From positions 1,364,001 to 1,428,000 of the forward strand of contig NZ_BRVO01000001.1 of assembly GCF_027924185.1 (NCBI RefSeq): DNA of 64,000 nucleotides, given 5' to 3'. Below the pieces are notes generated by a model. It had not been told where the DNA came from. It did no database searches and saw nothing but the letters and a program-made list of their open reading frames with translations. Shown piece after piece: positions 8,892 through 21,376 of this stretch. The stretch's first letter is position 1; each line of letters starts with the position of its first letter. The position numbers were made by a program, and so were the translations under genes. The DNA comes from Neptunitalea lumnitzerae. Lineage in GTDB: Bacteria > Bacteroidota > Bacteroidia > Flavobacteriales > Flavobacteriaceae.

Positions 8892-9197
8892 ATGAGTCAA
8901 AAAATAAGAATAAAGTTAAAGTCTTACGATCATAATTTAGTAGACAAGTCTGCTGAGAAGATTGTTAAAACGGTAAAAACTACCGGAGCAGTTGTAACAG
9001 GACCAATTCCGTTACCTACTCACAAAAAGATCTTTACAGTTTTACGTTCTCCACACGTAAATAAAAAATCTAGAGAGCAGTTTCAATTAAGCTCTTATAA
9101 AAGATTATTAGATATCTACAGTTCTTCTTCAAAAACGATTGATGCGTTAATGAAGTTAGAATTACCAAGTGGGGTTGAAGTAGAGATTAAGGTATAA
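8892..9197 (+). CDS. rpsJ: 30S ribosomal protein uS10
   Basis: This 101-residue protein of the small-subunit head begins [14 protein letters not shown] and keeps the [20 protein letters not shown] loop. It also acts as NusE in antitermination complexes in other bacteria. It directly follows fusA and is separated from rplC by an unusually long 137-base gap for this operon, which holds a terminator-like structure described separately. Confidence 0.99.
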
Positions 9198-9205
9198 GTA
9201 CCTTC

Positions 9206-9307
9206 TAGAAGAAAGGAATTTCTTCTAAACATGTCCTGAGCTTAGTGCAAGGGAAAAACGGAAAAAAATACATTCAGGGTTAAATGTATTTGACCCTGAA
9301 TTTTTTT
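9206..9307 (+). promoter_or_regulatory. Attenuator-like leader between rpsJ and rplC
   Basis: Three RNA elements are visible. (1) A perfect 9-bp hairpin with a GGAA (GNRA-type) loop: 9206-9214 pairs with 9219-9227. (2) A long hairpin, 9272-9284 with 9289-9301 (one G-U pair, TGTA loop), followed by seven T at 9301-9307: an intrinsic terminator. (3) An alternative 9-bp helix, 9266-9274 with 9283-9291, that cannot coexist with the terminator. This is the layout of a transcription attenuator inside the S10 operon. A near-match to a -7 box (TGTATTTG, 9285-9292) also lies here, so an internal promoter is a weaker alternative. Confidence 0.6.
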
Positions 9308-9334
9308 AATAACAATGTTTAATTAATAATAACT

Positions 9335-9952
9335 ATGTCTGGGTTAATTGGTAAAAAAATCGGAATGACCAGCATCTTTGATGAAAATGGAAAGAATATT
9401 CCATGTACAGTAATTCAAGCTGGTCCATGCGTAGTTACCCAAGTCAGAACCACTGAGGTTGACGGGTATGAGGCTCTTCAACTTGGTTTCGATGACAAAG
9501 AGGAAAAACGTGCTAACAAAGCTGAATTAGGTCACGCTAAAAAAGCTGGTGTTGCTCCTCAAAAGAAAGTTGTTGAATTCCAAGGTTTCGAAGAAGGTTT
9601 TAAATTAGGTGATGCTATCACTGTAGAGCATTTTGCTGAAGGAGAATTTGTTGATGTATCTGCTACCTCTAAAGGTAAAGGATTCCAAGGTGTTGTTAAA
9701 AGACACGGATTTGGTGGTGTAGGTCAAGCTACTCACGGTCAACATAACCGTTTAAGAGCTCCTGGTTCTGTGGGTGCGTCGTCGTATCCATCTCGTGTAT
9801 TTAAAGGTATGCGTATGGCAGGTAGAACTGGCGGAAGTAAAGTGACAGTACAAAACTTAAGAGTATTAAAAGTGGTTGCGGACAAAAATCTTTTAGTTGT
9901 TAAAGGATGTGTGCCAGGTCACAAGAATGCTTATGTAATCATTGAGAAGTAA
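9335..9952 (+). CDS. rplC: 50S ribosomal protein uL3
   Basis: This 205-residue protein begins [15 protein letters not shown] and carries the [20 protein letters not shown] loop that reaches towards the peptidyl transferase centre. It is an early assembly protein of the large subunit. Its stop codon shares one base with the rplD start (TAATG), indicating translational coupling. It is the first gene after the attenuator-like leader and so the direct target of any control there. Confidence 0.99.
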
Positions 9953-20702: not shown

Positions 20703-20757
20703 TTAAGGGCGCTGATACGATTATCGAAGGATAGCCTTAATTCATAATCGCCCTTAA
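20703..20757 (+). ncRNA. uS4-type ribosomal leader before rpsD
   Basis: The rpsK-rpsD gap folds into a perfect 9-bp stem (20703-20711 with 20749-20757) enclosing 37 bases. These include an AAGG/CCTT hairpin (20727-20730 with 20735-20738) and an alternative GATTAT/ATAATC pairing (20719-20724 with 20744-20749) that competes at the base of the stem. Structured leaders preceding rpsD and bound by uS4 are known or predicted in several bacterial groups including Flavobacteriia. The position and structure fit that class; the exact family assignment is from memory. Confidence 0.6.
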
Positions 20758-20770
20758 TAAATTTTATAAA

Positions 20771-21376
20771 ATGGCAAGATATACTGGTCCAAAAACTAAA
20801 ATTGCTCGTAAGTTTGGTGAAGCAATTTTTGGAGAAGATAAATCTTTTGAAAAAAGAAATTATCCTCCAGGTCAACACGGTAACAACCGTAGAAGAGGTA
20901 AAAAATCTGAATACGCAATCCAGTTAATGGAGAAGCAGAAAGCTAAGTATACTTACGGTATCTTAGAGCGTCAGTTCAGAAACCTTTTCGAAAAAGCTAA
21001 CCGTAGCAAAGGTGTTACTGGTGAAGTTTTACTTCAATTATGTGAATCTCGTTTAGATAATGTAGTTTACAGAATGGGTGTTGCTCCTTCAAGAAGAGGT
21101 GCACGTCAATTAGTTTCTCACCGTCACATTACTGTAAACGGAGAGATCGTAAACATTCCTTCATATTCTTTAAAAGCTGGAGATGTTGTTGGAGTAAGAG
21201 AAAAATCTAAATCTTTAGAGGTAATAGAGAATGCATTAGCTGCAAATAGTACTGTTTACGAATGGATTACATGGAATACGGAGAAGAAAGAAGGTACTTA
21301 TGTAGCAGTTCCTGAAAGACTTCAGATTCCTGAAAACATTAAAGAACAGTTAATCGTCGAGTTATACTCTAAATAA
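20771..21376 (+). CDS. rpsD: 30S ribosomal protein uS4
   Basis: This 201-residue assembly-initiating protein has an S4 RNA-binding domain (about 92-155: [20 protein letters not shown], then [20 protein letters not shown]). It is the autoregulator of alpha operons in other bacteria. The leader directly upstream supports such feedback here, acting on rpsD and perhaps on rpoA and rplQ downstream. Confidence 0.99.

Follow-up and report, generated by a model that had tools for sequence, protein, structure and literature searches.

In Escherichia coli the S10 leader precedes rpsJ and controls uS10 and the genes after it, while the bL20 leader of Bacillus subtilis and similar leaders contain a mutually exclusive terminator and antiterminator. 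The element described here lies between rpsJ and rplC of Neptunitalea lumnitzerae and bears a likeness to both. With bL20-type attenuators it shares two overlapping helices, one of them followed by a U-tract, but it differs in its putative sensor core, its sequence and the operon it would regulate. With the S10 leader it shares a Rho-independent terminator in an RNA leader in front of an operon containing rplC-rplD-rplW-rplB; this likeness is one of description, and the flavobacterial element differs by following rpsJ and by staying with rplC where rpsJ is 6.5 kb away. In E. coli, uL4 is the ligand, and uL4 together with NusA-dependent pausing is the trigger proposed in the relevant part of PMC10931766, whereas for the flavobacterial element uL4 is only a candidate. 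Flavobacteria are already represented in Table 1 of Eckert and Weinberg (2020) by leaders of S4, S15 and S16, to which the text of that paper adds L19 (PMC7247131). These, including the S4 leader RF03141, are likewise short structured leaders in front of ribosomal protein genes of the same lineage but belong to other genes, and no S10-operon or rplC leader is given for Flavobacteria in that table. It does contain a uL4 leader of Archaeoglobi which leads rplC, rplD, rplW and rplB (Table 1, PMC7247131); this leader is archaeal and can be likened to the present element by its regulated genes alone.

Within the window, i.e. the whole stretch of 64,000 nucleotides that was analysed, the sole Rfam match at the gathering threshold is the S4-Flavobacteria ribosomal leader (RF03141; positions 20719-20749, + strand, 48.7 bits) just 5' of an ORF at 20771. 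Neither positions 9206-9307 nor the loci of ten relatives matched any family of Rfam 15 at that threshold, in line with the sequence-only reading, which knew no named leader family for this place; below threshold, in 9150-9360, the top score was that of PyrR (21.3 vs 54) and the lowest E-value that of FuFi-1 (0.018; 19.6 vs 59.6 bits). A GUCCY-hairpin motif is tabulated for Bacteroidetes and Proteobacteria, marked '?' as an RNA by its authors and given no Rfam number (Weinberg 2010, PMC2864571). Its name and phylum suggest a GUCCY hairpin and the flavobacterial core holds UGUCC, a comparison by name and table row only. The main text of PMC11109978 mentions neither Flavobacteria, Bacteroidetes nor rplC, structured 5' regions are reported for Flavobacterium psychrophilum with rplC not named in the accessible part of that source (PMC9723704), and the rplC element is absent from the corresponding part of PMC2965389. 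In the literature searched, supplements aside, no description of the rplC element was found, nor any regulator of the S10 operon for the phylum Bacteroidetes. Since no Rfam match and no published description were found, with GUCCY-hairpin compared only as above, the element is regarded as a new RNA family within a known kind, the ribosomal protein leaders. It is read here, with moderate confidence, as a leader of the rplC (S10-spc) operon that acts in cis by transcription attenuation, is specific to Flavobacteriaceae and is most likely sensed by one of the operon's own ribosomal proteins, uL4 before uL3.

The gap between rpsJ (uS10; 8892-9197, + strand; NCBIfam rpsJ_bact, E 5.4e-44) and rplC (uL3; 9335-9952, + strand; NCBIfam L3_bact, E 1.4e-81) measures 137 nt, compared with -1 to 22 nt for the ten other gaps among the 12 ORFs from rpsL on, ten of which are named by family match. 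The gene order 3' of rplC is rplD, rplW, rplB, rpsS and rplV. Judged from this arrangement, rplC would be the first gene behind the switch and rpsJ would be outside its control. Four features were recovered on the forward strand of the gap: a 9-bp hairpin with a GGAA (GNRA) loop at 9206-9227, read from the sequence and by folding and taken as an accessory stem; an antiterminator (alternative) helix of 9 bp, with its 5' arm at 9266-9274 and its 3' arm at 9283-9291; an intrinsic terminator hairpin of 13 bp with a UGUA loop at 9272-9301, seen both by folding and in a terminator scan; and, also in sequence and scan, its U-tract of seven T at 9301-9307. All the helices that the sequence-only reading had named are therefore present, the GNRA-capped hairpin, the terminator stem with its seven T and the alternative helix that excludes it, but the most conserved part of the element (9229-9261) had been missed and the sequence of the GNRA hairpin is not conserved. 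The 3' arm of the antiterminator falls within the terminator's loop and upper stem. An intrinsic terminator precedes rplC, the first regulated gene if the element is an attenuator, and the alternative helix that overlaps it in sequence is conserved and excludes it. An H-type pseudoknot of the two helices was also considered; exclusion is likelier, by reasoning, because the 3' arm of the antiterminator abuts the 3' arm of the terminator and no crossing loop is left.

The fold of 9206-9307 has an energy of -32.3 kcal/mol, whereas its shuffles average -16.16 (z -4.89) and none of 200 was as stable. Taken by itself, the terminator reached -16.1 kcal/mol (z -4.59 against shuffles); for the 9-bp alternative helix the value was -5.8 kcal/mol (z -2.85), equalled or bettered by 3 of 200 shuffles. 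Across 16 kb, a generic terminator scan returned 8 sites where 7.7 were expected and is by itself no evidence for that reason; the site between rpsJ and rplC has 13 pairs, the other seven have 5-6.

Between the GNRA hairpin and the switch lies the conserved core (9229-9261), composed of ACAUGU, a small hairpin and GGAAAAACGG. The same core was found in 84 of 112 rpsJ-rplC gaps compared, with 79 distinct sequences; the 112 gaps comprise 80 named loci, 30 places in relatives and the window, such that the window's locus is counted three times and some genomes are repeated. In relatives the order is ACAUGUCC, small hairpin, (G)GGAAAAACGG, A-rich stretch and terminator. AUGUC, which begins within the 5' flank ACAUGU (9229-9234, + strand), does not vary among the 45 sequences of alignment A1, and the columns of the 3' flank GGAAAAACGG (9252-9261, + strand) are invariant or nearly so in the same alignment; exceptions outside A1 are UUGUC in locus L184 and ACGA in L047. 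The core hairpin itself (9234-9254, + strand) consists of the stems 9234-9237/9251-9254 and 9240-9241/9247-9248, a loop at 9242-9246 and an internal loop of G.A-type mismatches at 9238-9239/9249-9250. The two flanks, ACAUGU and GGAAAAACGG, are presumed from their sequence to be a putative protein-binding site, and this core rather than the GNRA hairpin is probably the sensor. A likeness of the core to 23S rRNA would back binding by a ribosomal protein, yet is not required. Against the 23S rRNA of a flavobacterial relative, which was found in one of two genomes searched (the organism's own rRNA was not found with RF02541 or RF00177), neither a position-weight scan (best score -17.8, compared with shuffled maxima averaging -21.8 with an sd of 6.2) nor a local alignment (10.0 vs a shuffled mean of 10.97) was significant. 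A loose core pattern matched 12 times away from rplC in 60 relatives; as a reversed control pattern gave a similar count (10), these matches are read as chance.

The distribution of the element was determined with a covariance model of core and terminator (R1), searched against genome sets of the family, order and class. In the window's family, Flavobacteriaceae, R1 matched 313 of 397 genomes (285 of the 330 of good quality) and 194 of 237 genera, leaving 84 genomes without a match. Each matching family genome has one match except G199, which has two, and the weakest (G393, E 6.5e-4) may be false, maybe of the A-rich-stretch sort. The order-wide sample gave 31 matches in 346 genomes, 30 of them in the family and the remaining one in G477, with all 19 listed genomes of genus g147 lacking a match. 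In the class-wide sample (n = 247) the three strong matches all belonged to the family, and a further five, weak at 34-43 bits, lay outside it. Matches outside the family thus number only six, all weak, and the three that were read, G477 and two at class level, lack the core and were rejected as A-rich stretches before ordinary terminators. Upstream stretches from 18 genomes of other families of the order also showed no core in the 16 that had rpsJ in the stretch; the other two did not have it there. Carrier genera include Aquimarina, Salegentibacter, Gramella, Maribacter, Winogradskyella, Leeuwenhoekiella, Lutibacter, Polaribacter and Tenacibaculum, whereas the core is absent from the four Flavobacterium-named loci, from those of Nonlabens, Avrilella and Ochrovirga, and from MAGs whose gaps are short. 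In the samples searched, the RNA element appears confined to Flavobacteriaceae and occurs in most of the members examined.

Some loci without the core have features of their own. Two Flavobacterium loci and one from a Flavobacteriaceae MAG (L041, L071, L075) show, on visual inspection, a hairpin resembling a terminator and a box resembling a promoter 5' of rplC, and the rplC operon seems to be cut off from rpsJ in these three. The promoter PrplC from Flavobacterium hibernum has been used as a tool, as the part of PMC6847099 concerned describes, which agrees with an rplC that is able to start a transcript in Flavobacterium, the genus whose four named loci here are without the core. In two loci from other families of the order (L170, L174) the same gap holds unrelated stable hairpins, GCTGGACA...TGTCCAGC and CTGATACC...GGTGTCAG with a T-run, and other families may therefore have an element of their own between rpsJ and rplC.

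Covariation was evaluated in alignment A2 (102 rows), from which the reverse-strand, terminator-only rows L055 and L034 were dropped for all counts based on 100 rows. Across the 102 rows, 92.2% of cells were paired compared with 84.5% after shuffling, and changes on both sides occurred in 14 of 19 pairs compared with 7.7; in the terminator this applied to 10 of 13 pairs. Under a tree-based substitution null (100 rows), the top three of 2850 column pairs were terminator pairs (E 0.025, 0.075 and 0.6), while in this all-pairs test the core pairs ranked lower, with E above 6, and none stood out. The per-column tree null placed terminator pairs 55-86 and 58-83 and core pairs 9-25 and 14-21 at p 0.0007, the floor of the test, and core pair 13-22 at p 0.0027, all uncorrected for 19 pairs; pairs 6-28, 7-27 and 52-89 were uninformative and 60-81, 61-80 and 62-78 not significant. 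The G.U pairs of the terminator (59-82, 60-81) fit the + strand. At least six T in the best 8-nt window of the U-tract were counted in 81 of 100 aligned elements, and in the 19 with five or fewer termination may be poor.

Since the model does not include the alternative helix, no part of the alignment was fitted to this helix. The A-rich stretch of each species was paired with its own terminator loop and with those of other species, and native pairs were the more stable (-4.10 vs -2.59 kcal/mol in 47 separated representatives; z -8.6, equalled by none of 20000 permutations), with a like result for 27 more widely separated representatives. Compensated arms include AAAUACA/UGUAUUU, AAAGAAAA/UUUUCUUU, AAACAA/UUGUUU, AAAAAUG/CAUUUUU and GAAAAUA/UAUUUUC. 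The same cross-species test gave z -13.8 for the terminator stem and z -3.5 for the core hairpin. Six of seven control segment pairs were not significant, and the seventh, the A-rich stretch with the 3' arm of the terminator, was weakly so (z -2.6, p 0.006). Both overlapping helices are under selection. Conservation and covariation of the two helices in relatives, the check that the sequence-only reading had proposed for itself, were found for both, and the element has the conserved, covarying RNA structure expected of a ribosomal protein leader.

The order in which the two helices form was followed by lengthening the transcript one base at a time and computing helix probabilities for each length. 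In the window the antiterminator climbs to 0.97, after which the terminator takes over at 0.60, 0.92 and 1.00 as GACCCUG completes (lengths 68-70). Across the alignment the antiterminator is favoured at first, reaching at least 0.5, in 99 of 100 sequences, and the full-length terminator reaches at least 0.9 in 83; the 17 below 0.9 are in part perhaps a matter of column mapping, as these probabilities use fixed columns and are perhaps too low for Polaribacter-like rows. The hybrid in the polymerase spans 9-10 nt, and the antiterminator hairpin would be complete with the polymerase at the U-tract, which would suit a pause. Given -16.1 kcal/mol for the terminator vs -5.8 for the antiterminator, the default at equilibrium would be OFF, and negative feedback would therefore need kinetics or pausing for read-through. 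With the terminator as the more stable state, the sign of control would be that of a repressor favouring termination or of a factor preventing it.

A core resembling a protein site, followed by antiterminator, terminator and ribosomal protein operon, is the arrangement of a ribosomal protein leader that works by transcription attenuation. For the attenuation leader proposed here, the core would be the binding site of a ribosomal protein whose gene lies in the operon. By computation, the antiterminator is favoured while only its own strands have emerged and the terminator, in most relatives, once its 3' arm has been made. If the protein is in excess over rRNA, its binding would favour the terminator and transcription would stop before rplC. 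Alternatively, as has been suggested for uL4 in E. coli, the bound protein could keep RNA polymerase paused at the U-tract. If the protein is not in excess, the polymerase would read through into rplC. Since they are made upstream, uS10, S7, S12 and EF-G would escape this control. The leader probably tunes the output of the large ribosomal protein operon. Among candidate ligands, uL4 would most likely come first and uL3, whose gene rplC is the nearest to the element, second. The preference for uL4 follows the rule of Eckert and Weinberg, by which a protein already known as a ligand elsewhere is preferred (PMC7247131, in the part concerned), and control by uL4 is itself a guess.

The stability of the terminator lends itself to the opposite sign of control as well. 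The terminator would then be the default and a factor recognising the core, a processive antitermination protein or a complex associated with RNA polymerase and no ribosomal protein repressor, would let the polymerase through. Such positive control would fit a terminator that is the stable state in the window and reaches at least 0.9 in 83 of 100 complete transcripts, and the conserved flanks of the core could resemble a protein site. A separately conserved antiterminator helix would, however, be superfluous for simple protein antitermination, and ribosomal leaders are described as negative feedback in the relevant part of PMC7247131, so that this explanation appears unlikely, if worth keeping in mind. 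Equally tentative is its wider form, in which the core ACAUGU-hairpin-GGAAAAACGG would represent a new family-wide RNA class, a positive antitermination signal through which some factor, so far not known to recognise RNA, would release an rplC operon stopped by default. If this were true, ribosomal protein synthesis would be gated in the middle of the superoperon, apart from uS10 (NusE), EF-G, S7 and S12.

A ribosomal protein leader of rplC would be expected in a constant place directly 5' of ribosomal protein genes, and this is where the element is found. In all 47 family loci fetched at genome-wide matches (21 + 26), some from the same genomes as among the 79 gap-derived sequences, rplC lies directly downstream. 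The same holds for 100 of 100 aligned elements, by construction in the 79 found in the rpsJ-rplC gap; loci of the 100-row set were chosen for carrying the core or for being genome-wide matches. The position after rpsJ and before rplC, noted before in a single genome, is accordingly the rule among family members that have the element (47 of 47 and the gap loci). Between the end of the element and rplC there are 6-138 nt in the 100-row set. Seven loci from Polaribacter, Tenacibaculum and other relatives have GACGCGCTGGA in common (L056:3058, L059:3152, L067:3053, L070:3287, L076:3050, L153:1443(-) and L157:1442(-)). In the five of these gaps that were read, it contributes to an additional hairpin, AGACG...CGUCU, located after the terminator and ahead of the rplC start, which may be a second control element in this lineage.

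One locus separates the element from rpsJ. In L157, a single-contig genome (G676), the distance from rpsJ to the element is about 6.5 kb, with rpsJ upstream and both on the same strand; rplC still follows the element. Between rpsJ and the rplC operon lies a gene for a family 18 glycosyl hydrolase with a secretion-sorting C-terminus (1950-3062 of L157, - strand; Pfam), and the layout is GH18 gene, hairpin with T-run, promoter-like site, element and rplC-rplD. Promoters of the Bacteroidetes type consist of TTG, a spacer of 18-23 nt and TAnnTTTG. A site of this kind was found upstream of the element in 8 of 100 sequences against 0.4 expected, L157 (600 nt scanned) among them, and in six of the nine upstream stretches longer than 120 nt. 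These observations bear on the possibility that the element is a constitutive partial terminator whose fixed read-through lowers expression from rplC onward relative to rpsL-rpsG-fusA-rpsJ. A terminator that is strong in most aligned relatives would be all that this needs, but it would explain neither the nearly invariant core, nor the covarying antiterminator, nor why the core is retained where rplC has its own promoter-like site and rpsJ is 6.5 kb away, and it is judged improbable.

The sequence 5' of the core, the site of the GNRA hairpin, differs between genera and can be as short as 9 nt, so that the GNRA hairpin is accessory at most. A sequence-variable hairpin directly 5' of the core (9198-9228 in the window, and in relatives) is common across genera, with 58 of the 87 stretches of at least 20 nt folding at z < -2 against mononucleotide shuffles, with sequences that differ among them. 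Stable hairpins this frequent after rpsJ, together with some short T-runs, could point to a role in RNA stability or processing, such as cleavage between rpsJ and rplC, or in the translation of rplC, the T-run being incidental. The layout of hairpin and T-run is nevertheless conserved together with the helix that excludes it, and the element ends at varying distances from rplC, for which reason occlusion of the start site does not fit. Such a role is considered slightly less credible again than a fixed partial terminator.

Much less probable still is attenuation by a leader peptide, in which the AUG of ACAUGUC would open a short ORF that sets the switch. This AUG is invariant in the 45 A1 sequences and AUG-UCC-stop forms a two-codon ORF in 47 of 100, but the other 53 read on for 4-49 codons, the length of the core (29 nt in 5 sequences, 30 in 81 and 31 in 14) shifts the frame, and L184 has UUG instead of AUG. 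The leader peptide was rejected, as neither frame nor stop is conserved and the AUG is not universal. The least credible explanation, an operon boundary with the str-rpsJ transcript ending at the terminator and rplC transcribed from a promoter further downstream, could draw on the hairpins with T-runs followed by promoter-like sites in some gaps, but these lie upstream of the element, and on a lone -7-like box between element start and rplC in 9 of 100 sequences (7.4 expected), all nine within the terminator region, but no promoter was found 3' of the terminator in the 100 sequences, with no -7-like box 3' of the U-tract (0 of 100, 2.1 expected) and no two-box site from the element start to rplC (0 of 100, 0.4 expected).

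If the element is indeed an attenuation leader read by a ribosomal protein, a major bacterial family of sea and soil would have a separate control point for its largest ribosomal protein operon, situated after rpsJ rather than in front of it. At about 80 nt and in one copy in nearly every matching genome, the element would offer a compact target for finding the ribosomal protein that reads it. It also suggests how control of the S10 operon can be rewired while the order of its genes remains unchanged.
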